DNA of 32,248 bases from Acidobacteriota bacterium. GTDB taxonomy: Bacteria; Acidobacteriota; Terriglobia; Terriglobales; Acidobacteriaceae. This document shows, one piece after another, positions 3,364 through 25,497 of the stretch (position 1 is its first letter; each line of letters starts with the position of its first letter). The stretch lies in the NCBI GenBank assembly GCA_021826695.1, contig JAKAYS010000016.1, positions 1 through 32,248 on the forward strand, read 5' to 3'. The notes beneath the pieces were generated by a model. It worked only from the letters and a program-made list of their open reading frames with translations, had not been told where the DNA came from and made no database searches. The translations under genes were made by a program, and so were the position numbers.

Positions 3364-4257
3364 CGAGGCACTTCCTTGGAACTTACATGAATTGAACGCA
3401 AGGCTTTTCGAGGGACCGTAAGATCCAGACCTGCGAGGCTTCTTTCGAGCAGCATATGAGGTTTTTGTCTCAAATGTAGTTTCGCTTACCCACCTGTTTG
3501 TTCTGCCTCATCTGTACACGGCAACCGGGTGGATCCTGACAGTCGACGGTAGCTTCACGCTGTTGGAGCGCACACTTGCTGCGCTTCCGGACTGTACTTT
3601 TGTTCCTGTCCTAAAAGTATGTGATCGGCGAGCCACGGACACCAGAAAGGCGTGCGGCTACAGCCAAACGATGAGCAAGTCTGATGCTACTCCGACCGTA
3701 CAAAATCGGCAAGTAGCAGACACAAGGAAAAACCGGATTCTCAAACGCACCTGTCACAGTTGTCTGAAATACAAACTGATATCAGGGATTCTGAGTAAAA
3801 ATTGGATGTTGAAGATGATGAAAGCCAAGGCTGGAGAATCGACGCGCGGGATTCTCAAAACAAATAAACCATGGCCTAAATCAAACGGGTCACTGGCCTC
3901 CCGGTTACGTCGGGTAGACCCGCTTATAACGCCTCTTACAACTGTTCAATCTGGAGCCGTCCCGGTTTCCAGTCTTTTAGCTGGAAACTCGTATGGACGA
4001 CTCGACATAATCGAACTTGGTCTATGCTCCAGCCCATTGGGCTTGGATTGCGTCGTCTTGCCTCGCACTACCAATATGCACTTCGAGTACCAATTTGACA
4101 CTCAATAAAATCAACAACTTGCAGCAACCCCTAGCAAGAAAGTTCTAAAATTCCGTAGACGCAGTGGCCTTTAAATCCGCAAATTCATAGTCTTGTATCG
4201 AGAAATGGTGTTTTTAGAAGAGAAGAGGATATCCATCATTTCCTTGCGACAAAACCT
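3364..4257. other. Intergenic region, no gene supported
   Basis: About 890 nt between the divergent-side start of the receiver-like gene (3363) and the end of mutM (4258). A 181-codon forward frame exists at 3563-4108, but its translation has no recognisable domain, no good ribosome binding site and an odd composition. One perfect 8-bp stem with an 8-nt loop (GTTTCCAG / CTGGAAAC, 3965-3988) is the only clear structure. The stretch is more AT-rich than its neighbours, particularly 4090-4250. It should contain the promoter of the reverse-strand gene near 3364-3480. Confidence 0.5.
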
Positions 4258-5142
4258 TCAACGCTGGCAGTTGGGACAAAAATGAGTGCCGCGTCCCCCC
4301 AGGACGATTCTACGGATCGGCGTCTGGCAGACGAGGCATGGCTCGCCAGTTCTCATATACACTTTGTGTTCCAGTTGGAAAAAGCCGCGGACGCCATCCG
4401 CATCCACATAGTCGGAAACTGAGGAGCCACCCAGCGCGATAGCTTCCCGCAGCACACTCTGGAGCGATACATGCAGTCGCGCCATCTCTCTGGCGCTCAA
4501 CCCCGCGGCCTGCCTGCGCGGGCGAATTCCCGCGCGAAAGAGACTTTCATCGGCATAGATATTGCCCACTCCATGGAGTAGCGACTGATTCAGCAATGCA
4601 GACTTGATCGGCGTCCTTCGTCCACGAAAAAGGGCGCGAAAGGCATTCTCGGAAATTTCCAGCGGTTCCTGTCCGGTCCCAACAAAACTGCCGGATGCAG
4701 CATCCCGCAGTCTGAGCTTCTGGATCTCGGACGTGTTCGAAACGCTCTGGTCCGCGCTACTCAGCACCGACAGCCGACCGAAGCGCCGGGGATCGACGAA
4801 GCGAATCTCGCGGTGATCGTCCAGTTCGACAATGGCGTGCGTATGGGGAGGCACAGGCACATCGGGCTGCGATACCAGAAGCCGGCCAGTCATTCCCAGG
4901 TGGACCAGCCACTGCCCGCGTGAGATTTTTCCATCGCTTTCCAATATCAAATCCACCACAATATGTTTGCCCACGCGATGCACCCTATCCACGGTACGGC
5001 CTGTGAGAGCGGCGACGATTTCGGTCGGTTTCGATCGAAACGGCTCACGCTTGGAGCCAAGCCATACGGAAATAATTGTGCGTCCGCGCGCGCGCGCATC
5101 CACGCCACGCGCGATGGTTTCGACCTCGGGTAATTCTGGCAT
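4258..5142 (-). CDS. mutM: Formamidopyrimidine-DNA glycosylase (Fpg/MutM)
   Basis: Bifunctional DNA glycosylase/AP lyase that removes 8-oxoguanine and formamidopyrimidines. The N-terminus MPELPEVETI gives the catalytic Pro2 (Pro1 after Met removal) and Glu3. GKHIVV holds the conserved Lys near residue 61. The H2TH region is recognisable around LNQSLLHGVGNIYADESLF. The protein ends with a four-Cys zinc finger (CLVC then CPNC) that finishes at the C-terminus, as usual in Fpg. At 294 residues it is slightly longer than the typical 270-275, owing to an insert around residues 130-160. The start is fixed by the requirement for Pro next to Met. It appears to be transcribed alone. Confidence 0.96.
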   Translation of the reverse strand: MPELPEVETIARGVDARARGRTIISVWLGSKREPFRSKPTEIVAALTGRTVDRVHRVGKHIVVDLILESDGKISRGQWLVHLGMTGRLLVSQPDVPVPPHTHAIVELDDHREIRFVDPRRFGRLSVLSSADQSVSNTSEIQKLRLRDAASGSFVGTGQEPLEISENAFRALFRGRRTPIKSALLNQSLLHGVGNIYADESLFRAGIRPRRQAAGLSAREMARLHVSLQSVLREAIALGGSSVSDYVDADGVRGFFQLEHKVYMRTGEPCLVCQTPIRRIVLGGRGTHFCPNCQR

Positions 5143-5361
5143 CCTGGTATGTACCTGCTCCTGGCTGCGTGGCCCGCCGGAACTTTCACTCCGCTTTCTT
5201 CTTTTACAGAGCCACCCGCTAGTATAGGATTCTTAGTTGTGAGTGCTTCCAATGCTGGCATTTCAGCAGCGACCCTCCGCAAGACAATCGTGGCCACGCA
5301 CAATCGGCAATGCCTTCGAACTATGCGGTTTTTGTGTGTCCGGCCACGGAAATGAGTAAAG

Positions 5362-6681
5362 ATGCGAGCAAAAACAGCGATAGTGTTGGGTGCCCAGTGG
5401 GGCGATGAAGGTAAAGGAAAAATCGTCGACGTTCTGTCTGGGCGCTTTTCGGTCGTGGCGCGTTATGCCGGCGGTCACAACGCCGGTCACACCGTCATTA
5501 TCAGCGGCAAAAAGTTCGTTCTCCAACTGGTGCCTTGCGGCGTATTGCGGCCCGACTGCCGCGCCGTGATTGGCAATGGAGTGGTCCTCGATCCGATGGC
5601 GTTTCTGAAAGAAATTGACCGCCTGAAGGACCTCGGAGTCGATGTTGCCGGGCAGTTGTTTATCTCCGACCGCGCGCATGTCATTCTGCCCTACCATCGC
5701 ATGATTGAGCTGGCAGCGGAGAACGCGCCGGGCCGTATGAAAATCGGCACCACCAGCCGCGGCATCGGGCCTGCGTACGAAGACAAAATGAAACGCAGCG
5801 GCCTCCGGGTGGTCGATCTCTTGAATCCGGAAATCATGCGCACGCACATCCATAACGCCTGCCATGAAAAGAACACCATCGTGCGTGCGCTTTTTGGGAC
5901 CGATCCTTTGGACCCGAACAAGATGTATGAAGAATATGCCCGTGCTGCCGAGCGCATCGCCCCCTTCATCGCCGACACCTCGCGGATACTGAACCAGGCC
6001 TTGCGCGACGGCCAAAGCATCATGTTTGAAGGCGCGCAGGGCACCATGCTCGACATCGACCATGGAACGTATCCGTTTGTGACATCTTCCTCGGCCACCG
6101 CAGGCGGCGCGGTCATTGGCACTGGCGTTGGCCCGACGGCGATAGGCACTGTCATCGGCGTTACCAAGGCGTATGTTACGCGGGTTGGCGAAGGCCCGTT
6201 ACCCACTGAAATCCACTCGGAGCAGGGCGAACTTCTGCGTATCCGCGGGCAGGAGTATGGCGCCGTCACCGGACGCCCACGCCGCTGTGGCTGGCTGGAT
6301 CTCCCTCTGCTGCGCTATTCGACCGAGATCAACGGCACAGAGTGGCTGGTAGTCACCAAACTGGATGTCCTGGATGCTCTGAAGGAAATTCCTGTATGTA
6401 CCGCTTACAATATCAACGGGAAAATAACCGATTCGATTCCTGCGGACGTGCGTGGTCTGGAAGCGATCCAGCCAGTTTTGACTACAATGAAGGGCTGGTC
6501 CGAACCCACGGAGAACGTTCGAACATTTGAAGGACTCCCTGCCGCGGCAAAAGACTATTTGAAGTTTCTCGAAACCGAATCTGGGGCAAAGATCGGTATG
6601 ATTTCAATAGGACCCGACCGCGACCAGACGATCCTTCTGCCGGAGTTCGCGGCGACGCTCGATGCGATGGCCCAGAAGTAG
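5362..6681 (+). CDS. purA: Adenylosuccinate synthetase
   Basis: Catalyses GTP-dependent condensation of IMP and aspartate to adenylosuccinate, the first committed step of AMP synthesis, in the cytoplasm. The 439 residues match the family length. GAQWGDEGKGK at residues 10-20 is the glycine-rich GTP/IMP loop with the catalytic Asp15. ARYAGGHNAGHTV, IGTTSRGIGPAYEDK, FEGAQGTMLDIDHGTYPFVTSS and the late VTKLDVL (guanine-specificity motif) all follow in the expected order. The ATG at 5362 gives the canonical N-terminus. A GGA-type ribosome binding site lies near 5348. A neighbouring ATG at 5352 is out of frame. The gene is divergent from mutM and is followed by a small ABM-domain gene 83 nt downstream. 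Confidence 0.97.
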   Translation: MRAKTAIVLGAQWGDEGKGKIVDVLSGRFSVVARYAGGHNAGHTVIISGKKFVLQLVPCGVLRPDCRAVIGNGVVLDPMAFLKEIDRLKDLGVDVAGQLFISDRAHVILPYHRMIELAAENAPGRMKIGTTSRGIGPAYEDKMKRSGLRVVDLLNPEIMRTHIHNACHEKNTIVRALFGTDPLDPNKMYEEYARAAERIAPFIADTSRILNQALRDGQSIMFEGAQGTMLDIDHGTYPFVTSSSATAGGAVIGTGVGPTAIGTVIGVTKAYVTRVGEGPLPTEIHSEQGELLRIRGQEYGAVTGRPRRCGWLDLPLLRYSTEINGTEWLVVTKLDVLDALKEIPVCTAYNINGKITDSIPADVRGLEAIQPVLTTMKGWSEPTENVRTFEGLPAAAKDYLKFLETESGAKIGMISIGPDRDQTILLPEFAATLDAMAQK

Positions 6682-6764
6682 CCCGCAACCAAGTAATTTT
6701 CGTCGAGTCCATGACTCGCATTGCCGCTTGCTGACCCCAAAGCATGCCAAGGAGAAGTTTGACA

Positions 6765-7052
6765 ATGATTTCATTTATTGTTCGCATGCGTTTTTCCCAG
6801 GAAGATCGTGCTCAGGTATTAAGCGCTGTCCAGCATTTGGCGCAAGCCTCGCGTAAGGAGCCAGGTTGCGTCACTTACATTCCCCATGAAATGGCCGGCG
6901 ACTCAAGCCTGGTCATGATCTACGAGCAGTACCGGGATGAAGCGGCACTGGAGGCCCATCGCGCTTCCCCGCACTTCCACGAACACGCCATCGGTGGCCT
7001 GTACCAGTGGATGAAGGAGCGGCATGTGGAGGATTTGAACGCCTTGGCATAG
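6765..7052 (+). CDS. Antibiotic biosynthesis monooxygenase (ABM) domain protein, YgiN-like
   Basis: A 95-residue protein of the dimeric alpha/beta-barrel ABM family, related to YgiN quinol monooxygenase. It shows the family pattern: a first strand (ISFIVRMRF), a helix of alternating charged and hydrophobic residues, GCVTYIPHEM, then MIYEQYRDEAALEAHRASPHFHEH, the conserved region holding the E.W/Y and HxxxxHF elements. Members oxidise quinols or aromatic substrates without cofactor; the substrate here is unknown. I chose the ATG at 6765 over the one at 6744 because AAGGAG sits at 6749-6754, correctly spaced for 6765, and the shorter form begins right at the first beta strand. Confidence 0.88.
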   Translation: MISFIVRMRFSQEDRAQVLSAVQHLAQASRKEPGCVTYIPHEMAGDSSLVMIYEQYRDEAALEAHRASPHFHEHAIGGLYQWMKERHVEDLNALA

Positions 7053-7149
7053 GACTTCTCCGCCCATCCCATTTATCCGTACTGTTTCGTGCCAATGGGC
7101 TGCACATTCCCCCAGGTTCCGCATCCCATATTTGTGCAAAATTTAATTT

Positions 7150-7178
7150 TTGACTCTGGAGCGCGGGCGAACTACTAT
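7150..7178 (+). promoter_or_regulatory. Candidate sigma-70-type promoter with a very short leader
   Basis: TTGACT (7150-7155) and TACTAT (7173-7178) are separated by exactly 17 nt. A start of transcription about 7 nt after the -10 box would leave only some 6 nt before the ATG at 7191. No Shine-Dalgarno sequence precedes that ATG, so the mRNA would be nearly leaderless. This was found by eye and not tested. Confidence 0.45.
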
Positions 7179-7190
7179 CCCGATACAGCC

Positions 7191-7727
7191 ATGCGCGCGT
7201 ATTTCTTTTCATCCAGACACTTTGCAATCCGAGAAAAGGCAATCCATACCGGCGTATGGATTGTGCTGGCAATGTTGTCGGCGCCACCGGCCATCGCGGC
7301 CACAATCCCGCACCCTCACCACCAGCCAAAACAAATCGTCCGCATTATCGAAAGGAAAGAGCGGCACTTGCAGCAGGCGGAAGTTGAGGCCAACACAGCC
7401 ACCATTGCCTCCATGCTTTCCGATGACTATCTGGGGATTTATGCCGATGGCACACTGGCGACAAAACCGGAGACGATCGCCAGCTTTAAATCTGGCGCCA
7501 CACACTTCACCACAATCAATACATCCGATCGCAAAATTCGCATCTTCGGCAGCAGCACCGCAGTGGTGGTTTCAAAAGCGGTGGTCATCGGCAAGATCGG
7601 CGGCGAAGAAGTGAACGGACATTATCGCTATACGCGTGTTTATCACCGCGCCAACGGGGTATGGAAGGTCGTCAGCTTTGAAGCCAGCGCCCTGCGTGAA
7701 AAACCAAAGGCGCACATAAGCAAATAA
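7191..7727 (+). CDS. Secreted DUF4440 / SnoaL-like (NTF2-fold) protein
   Basis: A 178-residue protein with a hydrophobic signal segment (about residues 20-38, ending in AIAA) and an NTF2-like DUF4440 domain of about 120 residues. Typical features are the initial helix ERKERHLQQAEVEANTATIA, MLSDDYLGIYADGTLATK, the KSGATHF segment, strand pairs such as VVVSKAVVIGK, and a C-terminal HYRYTRVYHRANGVWKVVSF that matches the usual R.T.v..k.dG.W.v...h ending. Family members are small pocket proteins with mixed or unknown activities. The ATG at 7191 is preferred over an in-frame ATG at 7089, because a promoter-like pair lies between them and the later start places the signal peptide near the N-terminus. 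It converges with the next gene with a gap of only 2 nt and no visible terminator. Confidence 0.8.
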   Translation: MRAYFFSSRHFAIREKAIHTGVWIVLAMLSAPPAIAATIPHPHHQPKQIVRIIERKERHLQQAEVEANTATIASMLSDDYLGIYADGTLATKPETIASFKSGATHFTTINTSDRKIRIFGSSTAVVVSKAVVIGKIGGEEVNGHYRYTRVYHRANGVWKVVSFEASALREKPKAHISK

Positions 7728-7729
7728 GC

Positions 7730-8638
7730 CTATCGATCGGTTTTGAGCCATGCCTCGCGCAGCCGCTCCCAGGTAACTGCAAGGCTTTCCGGTAAGACCC
7801 GCGTTTCTCCAATCACCGTCATAAAATTTGTATCTCCGGCCCAGCGCGGCAGCATGTGAAGATGCAAATGTCCAGCAACGCCAGCCCCGGCAGCCTTGCC
7901 CAGGTTCATGCCCAGGTTGATCCCGTCCGGGCGATAGACGCTTCGCAAAATCCGCTCCAGCCGCTGCGCCAACGCCATCATCTCCTGCGCTACTGGCGGT
8001 CCCAGCCTGCTTAGCTCATCGATATGGGCATACGGCACGATCATGGCGTGGCCGGAGTTGTAGGGAAATGCATTCAGGCAGACGTAGCAGTGCTCCCCAC
8101 GATAGACGATATTGACGGAGCGATCGGCTTCGTCGGGCTGCATGTCATGTTCCACTGCATACGCCGTGGCCTCCAGCAGATTACAGAAAACGCAGCTGCA
8201 ATCCCCGGGCCATTCGGCCAATAGGGGAGGCACGCCCTGGCGTGTCGCCGAGTTGACAGTGCTGACATATTGGTAGCGCCAAGGGGTCCAGAGCGTGTCC
8301 ATAGGGAAAGTATAGAGCGGATTGGTTGACATTCTCCGTGTTCGCTCCAGCAGTTCGATACCTTTGTCCACGCGTTGCAGCACCAGTGCGGTGGACGCGA
8401 CCTTGGAGGTGCTGCACATGGAAAATCGCTCGTTCAACCGAATACCTGCACGCCTTCCGGTGAATGTGTCGAGTACGGCGCACCCCAATCTGCCGCCACT
8501 TTTCTTCTGGATATCTCTCAAATCGAAGGAAATATCTTCGGTTTGTTCCCCCATCAGAAAGGCGGGTGAGGACAGGGTCGCAAGGAACATAGAGGCGATA
8601 GCTGTGCGGCGCGTAATGAGGCTTGATTCAGATTCCAT
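7730..8638 (-). CDS. In-frame fusion of a class A beta-lactamase N-terminus to a HIT family hydrolase
   Basis: A continuous 302-codon frame with two unrelated parts. Residues 1-102 resemble the first third of a class A beta-lactamase: a twin-arginine-like signal (ITRRTAIASMFLATL), LGCAVLDTFTGRRAG, then FSMCSTSKV with the SxxK motif (S76, K79). It breaks off before the SDN, Glu166 and KTG motifs, so lactamase activity is not expected. From M103 or M113 the sequence is a complete HIT hydrolase: DTLWTPWRYQYVS, CVFC, FPYNSGHAMIVPYAH, and the triad HLHLHMLPRW near residues 257-266. The HIT part resembles the AP4A-phosphorylase/Fhit-like branch and probably starts at 8332 (M103, with GGAG-like bases upstream) or 8302 (M113). 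Export of a nucleotide hydrolase by the signal would be surprising, so the HIT domain is probably made from an internal start. Confidence 0.8.
   Translation of the reverse strand: MESESSLITRRTAIASMFLATLSSPAFLMGEQTEDISFDLRDIQKKSGGRLGCAVLDTFTGRRAGIRLNERFSMCSTSKVASTALVLQRVDKGIELLERTRRMSTNPLYTFPMDTLWTPWRYQYVSTVNSATRQGVPPLLAEWPGDCSCVFCNLLEATAYAVEHDMQPDEADRSVNIVYRGEHCYVCLNAFPYNSGHAMIVPYAHIDELSRLGPPVAQEMMALAQRLERILRSVYRPDGINLGMNLGKAAGAGVAGHLHLHMLPRWAGDTNFMTVIGETRVLPESLAVTWERLREAWLKTDR
8333..8638 (-). pseudogene. Class A beta-lactamase remnant (N-terminal third only)
   Basis: These 102 codons match the start of a class A serine beta-lactamase through the helix that carries the nucleophile (S76-T-S-K79) and the following VLQRVDKGIELLER helix. 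The remaining two thirds, with the SDN loop, omega-loop Glu and KTG strand, are absent, and a HIT hydrolase follows in the same frame. I read this as a deletion remnant upstream of the HIT gene. Because the frame is intact, a translated fusion cannot be excluded. Confidence 0.65.
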
Positions 8639-8705
8639 GCTCTCCGGACATCGGCTTTGATCTCAGCTCCAACTGCCCCCTTCAAAATCCGCTCAAGTCG
8701 GCGTC

Positions 8706-9716
8706 TTATACCCGAATCACCAGCTTGCCCATATGCGCGTCTCCGGAGCGCAGTAAGGAAATTAAAGCTCCGGGGGCCTGCTCGATGCCCTGGATGGCCG
8801 TCTCCTGATGCAGCAATTTGCCCGCGCGTAGGGCGGGAATCATTTCCGCTAGAAACATCGGCATGCGGTGGAGATGATCGACCACAATAAATCCCTCCAT
8901 GCAAAGCCGTCGAATGATAACGAGCGCCAGATTACGCGGACCCGGCACTGGCGTGTTGTAACCGGATATCGCGCCACACATCGCGATGCGCCCATGATTG
9001 CGCATCGCATAGAGAGCAGCTTCCAATTGCGGGCCGGCGGTGTTGTCGAAATACACATGCAGGCCATCCGGGGCCGCCTTCTGGAGCTGTTCCATCGGGT
9101 CCGACTCGCGATAGTTGAATGCGTGGTCCACCTTCAATTGATTTCTCAGGAATGCCACTTTGGCTGCCGAGCCAGCACTGGCGATGACGCGGCATCCACG
9201 CAGTTTTGCCAACTGGCACGCAACGCTGCCCACAGCGCCAGCGCCTCCAGAGATGAAAATCGTCTCGCCTTCTTTGACACTTGCAATATCGTTCAGCCCT
9301 ACCCACGCAGTCAGTCCGGTCGCGCCCAACACGCCGAGATACGCCGAGGCCGGGGCCAGATTGGCATCGATCTCGCGCAACTGCTGTGCCGGGGCAACGA
9401 AATAATCTCGCCAGCCACAAAGACTCTGCACCCAGGTGCTGACGGGAAAACCGGCGTCACGCGATTGCACTACTTGCCCTATGGCGGCGCCATCGAGCAC
9501 CTTCCCCACAGCAAAAGGAGGAACGTAGGATTTGCCCTCATTCATGCGCCCGCGCATATAGGGGTCGACGGAGAAAAATGCGTTTCGCACCAGGACCTGC
9601 CCCGGCTGCAACTCCGGCAAATCCACGGCCGCCAGTTCGAAGTTTTCTGCAGATGGCTCACCCTGCGGGCGTGAGGCGAGTCGAATCTCTTTTGCCTGGA
9701 GCTTGCTGATGGCCAT
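8706..9716 (-). CDS. Zinc-independent NADP-dependent MDR oxidoreductase (CurA/YncB, prostaglandin-reductase type)
   Basis: A 336-residue medium-chain reductase that uses NAD(P)H to reduce alpha,beta-unsaturated carbonyls. The N-terminal GroES-like domain has the family pattern RNAFFSVDPYMRGRMNEGKSYVPPFAVG. The Rossmann part shows the AYLGVLGATGLTAWVGL region and then VFISGGAGAVGSVACQLAKLRGCRVI, a variant of the AAxGxVG dinucleotide motif. DHAFNYRE and HVYFDNTAGPQLEAAL are also typical. No zinc ligands are present, as expected for this branch. The open frame extends upstream to 9869, but the ATG at 9716 (MAISKLQAKEIRLASRP) is where homology-like sequence begins. It lies 67 nt upstream of the beta-lactamase/HIT gene on the same strand and may be co-transcribed with it. 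Confidence 0.93.
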   Translation of the reverse strand: MAISKLQAKEIRLASRPQGEPSAENFELAAVDLPELQPGQVLVRNAFFSVDPYMRGRMNEGKSYVPPFAVGKVLDGAAIGQVVQSRDAGFPVSTWVQSLCGWRDYFVAPAQQLREIDANLAPASAYLGVLGATGLTAWVGLNDIASVKEGETIFISGGAGAVGSVACQLAKLRGCRVIASAGSAAKVAFLRNQLKVDHAFNYRESDPMEQLQKAAPDGLHVYFDNTAGPQLEAALYAMRNHGRIAMCGAISGYNTPVPGPRNLALVIIRRLCMEGFIVVDHLHRMPMFLAEMIPALRAGKLLHQETAIQGIEQAPGALISLLRSGDAHMGKLVIRV

Positions 9717-9889
9717 GGAAAAACACTCTTGAATGCTGGGATTCTTTGCAGTCACCCTGGCCCCAACCAGCGGTCGTCTCACATTGGTGACAGCATTCCC
9801 TCTCGGCATTATGCACCCTTTATAGGACAAAAAACCAACTTGAAAAAATCCGGGGCAGGCATGTTCCATGGGATTTGTTGTTCATTTCG

Positions 9890-9919
9890 TTGACACTGTT
9901 TTCCACCGGTTGGTATAGT
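9890..9919 (+). promoter_or_regulatory. Strong candidate promoter of rpsA
   Basis: A perfect -35 box TTGACA (9890-9895) and a near-consensus -10 box TATAGT (9914-9919) are spaced by 18 nt. Transcription would begin near 9926, giving a leader of about 240-300 nt before rpsA. This is the best sigma-70-type match I noticed in the window. Confidence 0.65.
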
Positions 9920-10164
9920 TTGAAGTGGCGGCAAAGTCCCTTGGACTCATGTGCTTTGCCTCCCATCGAGGGTTCTGCTCGTCCCCGGCTCAAAATTTCG
10001 TTCTGGCCTGCAGGTATAAGGTTGGAGTTGTCTCTAGCAAACTCCCCAGTTGCCTGCATCCCAAACCATATCGATGAGACCGAAAGACAGAAGCAGCCTT
10101 CGATTTCCCGCCGGTCGCAAAGACTTCCCTTCGGGGTAGACTTTAACAACTGGCGAGATAAGGA

Positions 10165-12216
10165 ATGCCATCAACCTCGGTAACGATCGTTGATGACAGC
10201 CCCATACAAAGCGCCAGACGCTTTGTAATGAGTCTGGAGCCCGCTGTCCCTATGGTAGACGTCCTCAATCCCGAACACACTGAGAGCAAACCCCTGAACA
10301 CAGAACTGGAAGCCACCGAAATCGCCACGGTCGCGGCGGAAGCCGACGCGCCTGAATCCACCCATAACTTTTCCGCTTCGGCGGAGAACCAACACGCGGA
10401 ACATAACCACGCCGACAATCAGATCGCCAAAAACCGAATTCCCGGCGTTTCCACCGCTTCGCCTTCAGAAGGCGCCTCGCAACATGAAGAAGAGATGGAC
10501 TTTGGCGCTCTTCTGGAATCGTTTGAAAACGAGCAGGCCGCCGCGGAAGCCGCGCAGGCCGTGGACGGCAACGTCGTCACTGGCACCGTAATCAAGCTGA
10601 CCGACAAGCATGTCGTCGTCGATGTGGGCCTTAAGTCCGAAGGACTGATACCCATTGAGCAGGTGCTCGACCATACCGGCCAGTCGAAGTTGCAGCCTGG
10701 CCAGGTGATCGAAGTGGTCGTAGAGCGCGAGGAGCCCGAAGGCGGCTATCTGCTGAACTACGACAAGGCGCTGCGCCATCGCGTATGGGACACCATCGAA
10801 AAAGCCGCCAATGACAAGACCCCCGTCAGCGGCATGGTTGTCAGCCGCGTCAAGGGCGGATTGACGGTAGACATTGGCATCAAGGCATTTTTGCCTGGTT
10901 CGCAGGTGGAGATTCGTCCGGTCCGCAATCTGGAATCCTACATCGGGCAGACCATTGAAGTTCGCGTCATTAAGCTGAATAAAAAGCGCGGCAATGTGGT
11001 CGTCTCTCGCAAAGAACTTCTGGAAGATGAGGTTTCCGTCAAGCGCACGCTGACGCTGGACCATCTGGAAGAAGGCACCATTCTGACCGGCACAGTAAAG
11101 AACCTGACCGAGTATGGCGCGTTCGTGGACCTGGGTGGCATCGATGGCTTGCTGCACGTCACCGACATGTCCTGGGGCCGCCTCACGCATCCCCGCGATC
11201 TGGTCAACGTGGCGGATGAGATTCAGGTAAAGGTGCTGAAGTTCGATCGCGAGAAGCAGCGCATTTCGCTTGGCTTCAAACAGTTGACTCCGGACCCATG
11301 GCTCGACGTAGCAGAGCGTTATCCCGTAGGCGCGCGGGTGCGCGGTCGCGTTCTTAGCGTCACAGACTACGGCGCATTTGTGGAACTGGAACAAGGCATT
11401 GAAGGTCTGGTGCACGTTTCGGAGATGACATGGTCCAAGCGCATGAAGCACCCGACCAAGCTGGTCAAGCCCGGCGAAGAAATTGAAACCATCATTCTGA
11501 ATGTCAACCCCGCCGACCGCCGCATCTCTCTTGGCATGAAGCAATTGCTGGAAAATCCCTGGGAGCACCTGTCGGAGCGGTACACCACCGGCAGCATCGT
11601 CGAAGGGCGGGTCCGCAACCTGACTGAGTTTGGCGCATTTATTGAAATTGAAGATGGCATCGACGGGCTGGTCCATGTCAGCAATATGAGCTGGACCAAG
11701 CGCATCAAGCATCCTTCGGAAGTGGTCAAAAAGGGCGACAAGATCAAGGCGGTCGTGCTCGGAATTGAAGCCGAGCATCGCCGCCTGTCGCTTGGCATCA
11801 AACAGCTTCAGCCGGACGTGTGGGAGTCGTTCTTTGCCCAGCACCGTATCAATGACGTGTTGCGCGGCAAGGTGCTGCGCATGGCGCAATTCGGTGCATT
11901 TGTCGAACTGGCCGATGGAGTCGAGGGTCTCTGCCACATTTCAGAAGCCACCGACATCCATGGCTCTCCAGTGAAGCTGGATGTGGACCAGGAACACGAA
12001 TTCAAGATCATCAAAATGAACGCGGAAGAGAAGAAGATCGGTTTGAGTATGCGTGCCGTTGGAGTAGAAGCCACTCGCGCGGATGTAGAAGCTTACAGGG
12101 GGCCCTCTTCCGGCCCGTCGCAGGCCACTTCCACTTCTTCGCAGTCTTCCTCGTCTTCGTCCTCTTCGACGACGCTCGGAGATTTGATCAACTGGAAGCG
12201 CAGCGAACGAGAATAA
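10165..12216 (+). CDS. rpsA: 30S ribosomal protein S1 with six S1 domains and an acidic N-terminal extension
   Basis: A protein of 683 residues from the first ATG, or 662 from the ATG at 10228. After an acidic low-complexity leader of about 130 residues come six S1 RNA-binding domains, roughly at residues 133-200, 217-285, 302-374, 388-461, 475-548 and 562-635. Domains 3-6 carry the clear signature TEYGAFVDL/IDGLLHVTDMSW and close relatives. The last is followed by a Ser-rich tail (about 650-672). S1 binds mRNA on the small subunit and helps place it for initiation. E. coli S1 is 557 residues, so the N- and C-terminal extensions are extra. The start is uncertain: the ATG at 10165 has AAGGA directly touching it, too close to be ideal, and the ATG at 10228 follows a hairpin. 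A clear terminator lies at 12240-12275. Confidence 0.93.
   Translation: MPSTSVTIVDDSPIQSARRFVMSLEPAVPMVDVLNPEHTESKPLNTELEATEIATVAAEADAPESTHNFSASAENQHAEHNHADNQIAKNRIPGVSTASPSEGASQHEEEMDFGALLESFENEQAAAEAAQAVDGNVVTGTVIKLTDKHVVVDVGLKSEGLIPIEQVLDHTGQSKLQPGQVIEVVVEREEPEGGYLLNYDKALRHRVWDTIEKAANDKTPVSGMVVSRVKGGLTVDIGIKAFLPGSQVEIRPVRNLESYIGQTIEVRVIKLNKKRGNVVVSRKELLEDEVSVKRTLTLDHLEEGTILTGTVKNLTEYGAFVDLGGIDGLLHVTDMSWGRLTHPRDLVNVADEIQVKVLKFDREKQRISLGFKQLTPDPWLDVAERYPVGARVRGRVLSVTDYGAFVELEQGIEGLVHVSEMTWSKRMKHPTKLVKPGEEIETIILNVNPADRRISLGMKQLLENPWEHLSERYTTGSIVEGRVRNLTEFGAFIEIEDGIDGLVHVSNMSWTKRIKHPSEVVKKGDKIKAVVLGIEAEHRRLSLGIKQLQPDVWESFFAQHRINDVLRGKVLRMAQFGAFVELADGVEGLCHISEATDIHGSPVKLDVDQEHEFKIIKMNAEEKKIGLSMRAVGVEATRADVEAYRGPSSGPSQATSTSSQSSSSSSSSTTLGDLINWKRSERE
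10169..10226 (+). promoter_or_regulatory. Structured leader segment upstream of the internal rpsA start codon
   Basis: Two hairpins lie between the two possible rpsA start codons. CATCAAC (10169-10175) pairs with GTTGATG (10189-10195). ACAAAGCG (10206-10213) pairs perfectly with CGCTTTGT (10219-10226) around a 5-nt loop, ending 1 nt before the ATG at 10228. No proper Shine-Dalgarno sequence precedes either start. In E. coli, S1 represses its own mRNA through a structured leader without a strong Shine-Dalgarno sequence, so a similar role is plausible but unproven. Confidence 0.4.
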
Positions 12217-13254: not shown

Positions 13255-13264
13255 ATATCAGAGC

Positions 13265-13396
13265 GTGTTTCATAAATACGGTTTGTATCAGGGCATGGCT
13301 TTCCGCCGCGGCGGATACTGCAAAATGCTCAAGAATCGTGGGCTTTAGCCCCTGAAGATTTTTAACTGATCCGGCCCAAAAGTATTTATGAAACAC
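13265..13396. repeat. 132-bp dispersed repeat, copy 1 (MITE-like, 15-bp perfect terminal inverted repeats)
   Basis: The element begins GTGTTTCATAAATAC (13265-13279) and ends with its exact reverse complement (13382-13396). Inside are the palindrome TCCGCCGCGGCGGA and the small hairpin GGGCTTTAGCCC. The same 132-bp unit recurs at 25364-25495 with about nine differences by eye, and a damaged copy lies at 18419-18517. It has no coding capacity of note. This looks like a non-autonomous element or a REP-type family; no matching transposase is in the window. Confidence 0.85.
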
Positions 13397-18291: not shown

Positions 18292-18418
18292 GATTGTCTC
18301 CGGCAAAAAGAAATGTGCCGAGAAGCATACCAGACAGGACCGATCCTACGCCGGGAAACTTGAAGAGCCTTCAGTCGCAACAAGGAACTCACGTAAGGTT
18401 TGCGAGAGCTGCGTCTTC

Positions 18419-18517
18419 AGCATGGCTTGAGCCATGCCGCAAAAAGCTCAAGAATCGTGGACTTTAGCCCCTGAAGATTTTTGACTGGTCCGGGCCAAAA
18501 GTATTTATAAAACACGC
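18419..18517. repeat. 132-bp repeat family, copy 2 (left end lost)
   Basis: From about GCATGGCTT to the right terminal repeat this matches copies 1 and 3, but the left terminal inverted repeat and the first 30 or so bases are missing. The right end has one mismatch (18509). The internal TCCGCCGCGGCGGA palindrome is replaced by CATGGCTTGAGCCATG, a different perfect hairpin. The right end lies only 2-4 nt from the mqnE stop codon. Confidence 0.75.
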
Positions 18518-25024: not shown

Positions 25025-25361
25025 CCGTTATATCCTCCGCAACTTTGTATAAACAAATTTCGCTAATTTATTTCGTTTTCTGCAGTGGTAAGCGTGTCGT
25101 GAAATCCTTAATATCTTTCCGTTGCGTGTTCCATCGTTCCACTTTTGTCCAGCGGGCGCTTCCCAGCATTACAATCTGAAGTCTTTTTAATTAGACCACA
25201 AGTAGATCGCAAAGGTCAGCATGCTTAACAGTCCCTATATAAAGGTATCCTAAGAGTTACCTAATCGCAAAGAAATTAAAGTATGCTTCAAGTTTGGAGA
25301 TTCCCAAAAGTAATTGCTTGGAGAATCTATCCGCTTGGGATTTTTCAAGCTGACTGTCAGA
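25025..25361. other. Intergenic region before the OmpA-family gene
   Basis: About 340 nt between the OmpA start and the right-hand repeat copy 3. It is AT-rich and should hold the reverse-strand promoter of the OmpA-family gene. I could not pick a convincing -35/-10 pair by eye, and I see no gene. Confidence 0.45.
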
Positions 25362-25497
25362 GCGTGTTTCATAAATACGGTTTGTATCGGGGAATGGCTT
25401 TCCGCCGCGGCGGATGCCGCAAAATGCTCAAGAATCGCGGGCTTTAGCCCCTGAAGGTTTTTGACTGGTCCGGGCCAAAAGTATTTATGAAACACGC
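25362..25497. repeat. 132-bp repeat family, copy 3 (17-bp perfect terminal inverted repeats)
   Basis: The most complete copy. GCGTGTTTCATAAATAC (25362-25378) and its exact reverse complement (25481-25497) bound the element; the part shared with copy 1 is 25364-25495, the same 132 bp. It contains TCCGCCGCGGCGGA and GGGCTTTAGCCC palindromes. It ends 27 nt from the nuoB stop codon and could act as its transcription end. Confidence 0.85.

Follow-up and report, generated by a model that had tools for sequence, protein, structure and literature searches.

The window, i.e., the whole stretch of 32,248 nucleotides that was analysed, contains at 7730-8638 on its reverse strand an open reading frame of 302 codons (P0001) without an internal stop (Table 1). 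The sequence-only reading had described this frame as the N-terminus of a class A beta-lactamase joined to a complete HIT hydrolase. Comparison of the N-terminal 102 residues and of the remainder with family and structure databases confirmed both assignments. Residues 1-102 match class A beta-lactamases: the best model is the NCBIfam PAD family (3.5e-15), the class A equivalog model matches at 1.9e-13, and the ancestral lactamase GNCA4 from the PDB matches residues 36-99 at 3.3e-16. The C-terminal part matches Pfam HIT (3.8e-17; 63 bits with a cut-off of 21.5) and carries the H-x-H-x-H motif as HLHLHMLP. The closest solved HIT proteins by sequence are 6af2 (8.5e-37) and 3ano, an AP-4-A phosphorylase (9e-36); the next group follows at 2.5e-13. 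The protein appears to be of the Ap4A-phosphorylase (Rv2613c) type.

The window contains a second, short HIT protein of 112 amino acids (1995-2333), called HinT-like from its sequence only. There is also a dispersed repeat of 139 nucleotides, of which the window has three copies (13258-13396, 18377-18515, and 25357-25495) and the whole genome 17 complete or partial matches. This repeat produces look-alike small open reading frames with 'KYFWPGPVKNLQGLKP' and has no match in Rfam. It is perhaps a small non-autonomous mobile element.

Table 1. Features of the fused reading frame and its upstream neighbour (window coordinates)
Feature	Position	Strand	Basis or remark
Fused open reading frame	7730..8638	-	302 aa, P0001
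Class A beta-lactamase remnant, codons 1-98	8345..8638	-	76% identity to the full gene of G004 (298 aa); NCBIfam and PDB matches
Deletion junction (coding strand GGAGCG)	8343..8348	-	comparison of the window with G004
Former intergenic leader of HIT, now residues 99-112; contains M103 (8330-8332)	8303..8344	-	comparison with G004 and relatives
Conserved -10-like box TATACT, probable promoter of a predicted leaderless HIT mRNA	8309..8314	-	6 nt before the HIT ATG
HIT protein of the probable Ap4A-phosphorylase (Rv2613c) type, 190 aa from M113	7730..8302	-	family and PDB matches
NADP-dependent oxidoreductase-like gene (reductase)	8706..9869	-	name read from the sequence; true start probably inside the frame

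The origin of the frame becomes clear from a sister genome of the same genus, G004 (metagenome-assembled genome DBS1-3.bin155, contig JAJYGR010000157.1), with approximately 95% identical DNA across the locus (L031). G004 has an intact beta-lactamase gene (bla) of 298 amino acids (L031:4248-5144, reverse strand) that carries STSK, SDN, EPTLN, and KTG and scores 344 bits on the class A equivalog model NF033103 (cut-off 200). HIT follows on the same strand as a gene of its own, at a position and in an order matching those of the window. Alignment of the window with G004 yields two collinear blocks, namely 4168-8348 and 8343-11997; they share 6 nucleotides in the window, and the register between them is offset in G004 by a single extra segment of 664 bp. 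The coding strand at the break reads GGAGCG in the window; in G004 it reads GGATCG on the bla side and GGAGCG on the HIT side, 664 bp apart. The sequences around the break are CTGGAGCGAACACGGAG in the window, CTGGATCGCAAG on the bla side of G004, and CCGGAGCGAATTCGGAG on its HIT side. Thus the microhomology at the break is 3-6 bp (GGA to GGAGCG), with one mismatch in G004. The segment absent from the window comprises codons 99-298 of bla, its stop codon, and about half of the spacer between bla and HIT. Both the intact state in the sister and the deletion are directly observed in this alignment, and a deletion of 664 bp almost certainly made the fusion.

Two claims of the sequence-only reading are affected by this result. 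It had suggested that a deletion fused two neighbours and that HIT is read from an internal start; the deletion is borne out by the intact pair in G004 and by its end points, and the internal start is the most likely mode of expression, as discussed below. It had also envisaged that relatives might show a full lactamase gene next to a separate HIT gene, with a frameshift from sequencing error in the window. The full gene and its separate neighbour are indeed present in G004. A sequencing frameshift as the cause was rejected, as what separates the window from the sister is a 664-bp segment rather than single-base differences. The same fusion, proposed as something to look for in relatives, was not found in the genomes and loci searched, G004 having only the separate genes: there was no second fusion among 61 genomes and 80 named loci where HIT was sought.

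The comparison also moves the junction. It had been placed exactly at M103, but similarity to the intact lactamase of the sister stops at residues 97-99 (8343-8348). Residues 99-112 are translated former intergenic DNA, including the promoter-like box of HIT. The lack of stops across 102 codons had been called notable. This is not surprising, because 98 of these codons are real lactamase codons that were functional until recently, only 14 former spacer codons precede M113, and the spacer frame is already open in G004, for 46 codons upstream of M113. The length of the deletion equals 1 modulo 3, which brought bla and HIT into one frame, an outcome expected for one in three random deletions.

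The remnant keeps the Tat-like signal (TRR), the first strands, and the S-x-x-K helix. The pair S70-x-x-K73 is present as CSTSK within residues 1-98, aligned with the intact gene. SDN130, E166-x-x-LN, and KTG234 are absent from the window frame and all lie within the deleted part, and the frame scores 50 bits on NF033103, below the cut-off. Because SDN130, Glu166, and KTG234 are gone, the remnant cannot act as a beta-lactamase. Since a homologue search found no other close class A lactamase in the window's genome (94.6% complete), the genome has probably lost its class A lactamase gene.

M103 and M113 had both been put forward as candidate starts of HIT. Among HIT relatives, conservation begins at MDxLWTPWRY, i.e., at M113 (MDTLWTPWRY in the window). 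M103 was rejected, as this methionine occurs in the window and G004 only and the codons upstream of M113 are not conserved. The first T of the TATACT box is exactly 12 nucleotides before the ATG of M113. TATAMT (TATACT or TATAAT) occurs 6-7 nucleotides before the HIT ATG in 15 of 68 distinct upstream regions, with an expectation of about 0.015 per position by composition, and 20-22 nucleotides before the HIT start in 12 more; these regions are related sequences, so the count is not to be read as a probability, and the bases around the box differ freely. A scan for two-box sigma-70 promoters found no -35 box upstream of HIT. The deletion ended 34 nucleotides upstream of the box and spared it.

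In part of the family the box lies 18-22 nucleotides, and once 38, from the HIT start (L014, L074, L076, L078, L081, L082, L084, L085, L088, L090, L091, L093, L094, and L107), a pattern suggestive of shifts, in either the start codon or the leader, between a leaderless state and one with a short leader.

Leaderless bacterial genes are marked by a TANNNT box whose first T is some 12 bp upstream of the start codon; in three Acidobacteria genomes they were predicted to account for 9.7-19.4% of the genes (PMC3160421). We considered whether TATACT followed by ATG is a general leaderless signature of the window's genome and rejected this, since TATACT with 5-9 nucleotides before ATG shows no genome-wide enrichment (26 sites, with 25 in the control; 27 against 29 at shifted spacing). 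Therefore the leaderless reading rests on conservation at the HIT locus. We infer from this conservation that the HIT mRNA is leaderless and is started by the TATACT box. Because M113 is conserved, the box is conserved at leaderless spacing, and the deletion spared the box, HIT is very probably transcribed and translated from its own start M113, independently of the remnant.

Other loci of the family allow the history of the region to be outlined. The reductase and HIT genes are same-strand neighbours, 25-119 bp apart and without bla between them, in eight loci (L003 to L008, L012, and L070, seven within the genus and one in a different genus of the family; L005 and L071 share a contig, as do L003 and L069). 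In the window the HIT start is 407 bp away from the end of the reductase gene, and in G004 it is 1071 bp away. No fetched locus besides those of the window and G004 has bla and HIT together. Other genomes of the family have full-length lactamase homologues, 50-62% identical to the bla of G004, at other sites. The reductase thus appears to be the ancestral upstream neighbour of HIT. Because other members of the genus have reductase and HIT without bla, the simplest history would be that bla was inserted between them in an ancestor shared by the window and G004, with later truncation in the lineage of the window.

The sequence-only reading had also proposed to compare synonymous with non-synonymous changes in the lactamase part. 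Between the window and G004 the remnant has dS 0.41 and dN 0.11; HIT has dS 0.07, dN 0.011, and dN/dS 0.15. The ratio is 0.16 for the reductase and 0.08 for purA. The dN/dS of 0.26 for the remnant, which comes from this one pair and, with one fused genome, mixes changes from before and after the deletion inseparably, says that most of the divergence would predate the truncation and that the truncation would be recent; taken as a comparison of readings, it fits a young remnant and a young selected fusion alike. Several changes specific to the window fall at conserved positions. In the mature part of the remnant, P73S replaces a proline present in 21 of 24 relatives, and S59F introduces a phenylalanine found in none of the relatives compared. 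D98E, at the junction itself, replaces an aspartate present in 22 of 24. In this small sample such changes lean towards relaxed constraint on the remnant.

Identity to G004 is patchy along the locus: it is 74-89% in 8543-8842, 5268-5367, 5768-5967, and 6368-6567, and 95-100% around them. The first of these tracts covers the 5' part of the bla remnant together with the 3' part of the reductase gene. The pattern suggests recombination with a more distant lineage.

A competing interpretation builds on the other option of the sequence-only reading, a novel exported HIT protein: the frame would encode a new protein whose HIT domain reaches the periplasm by means of the Tat signal and helix of the lactamase, and selection would have retained the fusion. 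The frame is fully open, its signal region with the TRR motif is intact, an ATG with a GGAG-like site precedes the fusion start in the window, and the low dN/dS of the remnant would be expected under selection. However, our search gave this idea no positive support: the fusion is known from one genome only and is absent from every relative searched, HIT retains its own conserved start and its promoter-like box, and residues 99-112 come from translation of promoter and spacer DNA. Folding would not be anticipated for half of a lactamase domain, and the presumed substrate of HIT, Ap4A, occurs in the cytoplasm. We consider a selected exported fusion very improbable. Equally little probability is given to a weaker form of the idea, in which a second, Tat-exported form of HIT would be made from the old bla start beside the cytoplasmic form from M113.

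It is likewise highly unlikely that the organism has an intact bla and that 664 bp were lost in assembly or binning. The window's genome is fragmented (227 contigs), and the contig of the sister has a low coverage of 3x. But the sequence on either side of the junction is the window's own, about 3% and 12% different from G004, a 6-nucleotide overlap is too short for a mistaken join by a k-mer assembler, and there is no run of N, with flanking synteny intact on both sides over 8 kb. We infer that the assembly is correct at the read level. The reverse order of events, in which the fusion is ancestral and the sister later gained the missing part of bla, could appeal to the presence of any bla at this locus in two genomes only. 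Its probability is nearly negligible: the G004 gene is complete, collinear with the remnant, and similar over its full length to family lactamases found elsewhere, and an in-register gain of exactly 200 codons and a stop is far less likely than one deletion.

Thus we favour the following account, in which the normal HIT protein is the product in use and the fusion is an incidental remnant of a deletion; we regard it as highly likely as a whole. In the common ancestor of the window genome and G004, bla would have been located between the reductase and HIT genes. In the lineage of the window, a deletion between the short near-matching sequences would have removed the 664 bp and joined the remnant in frame with HIT by chance. 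HIT would most likely still be made from M113 as a cytoplasmic protein of approximately 190 residues of the Ap4A-phosphorylase type, on a leaderless mRNA started by the spared box. If the bla promoter is active, a little of the 302-residue fusion may be produced, but most likely it is not a selected product and would have no selected function. A remnant free of stops and frameshifts with dN/dS well below 1 counts against this account, as the same is expected of a selected fusion. For annotation, the 302-residue frame should be entered neither as a beta-lactamase nor as an exported HIT enzyme, and M113 is the proper start of HIT.

The remnant shares the signal region, first strands, and S-x-x-K helix with class A beta-lactamases (NF033103, Pfam Beta-lactamase2; PAD as the best model), but 200 of the 298 residues are missing from its C-terminal end, among them SDN, E-x-x-LN, and KTG, and it is not a functional member of this class. 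The HIT protein shares with the mycobacterial-type Ap4A phosphorylase (Rv2613c, PDB 3ano; 6af2) the H-x-H-x-H motif and a full-length match from the conserved start. It differs in scoring 155 bits on the actinobacterial ATP adenylyltransferase model NF052622, below its cut-off of 290, and in a frame that continues upstream into the bla remnant.

As in described leaderless genes (PMC3160421), HIT has a box with its first T 12 nucleotides before the ATG, conserved among relatives, and no Shine-Dalgarno sequence; its leaderless mRNA is a prediction from sequence. In Deinococcus such boxes have been tested, including boxes inside over-long annotated frames (PMC12340547), and the HIT box likewise lies within a longer nominal reading frame. 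Conserved TATACT beside its start makes HIT a modest example on which leaderless expression in Acidobacteriaceae can be tested. Finally, remnants of genes that a deletion has joined in frame to a neighbour share with our case a single deletion at short microhomology, intact sister alleles, and occurrence in a single genome. Our case shows no notable difference from them, and the fusion is most likely an ordinary evolutionary event that left an ordinary dead gene remnant.
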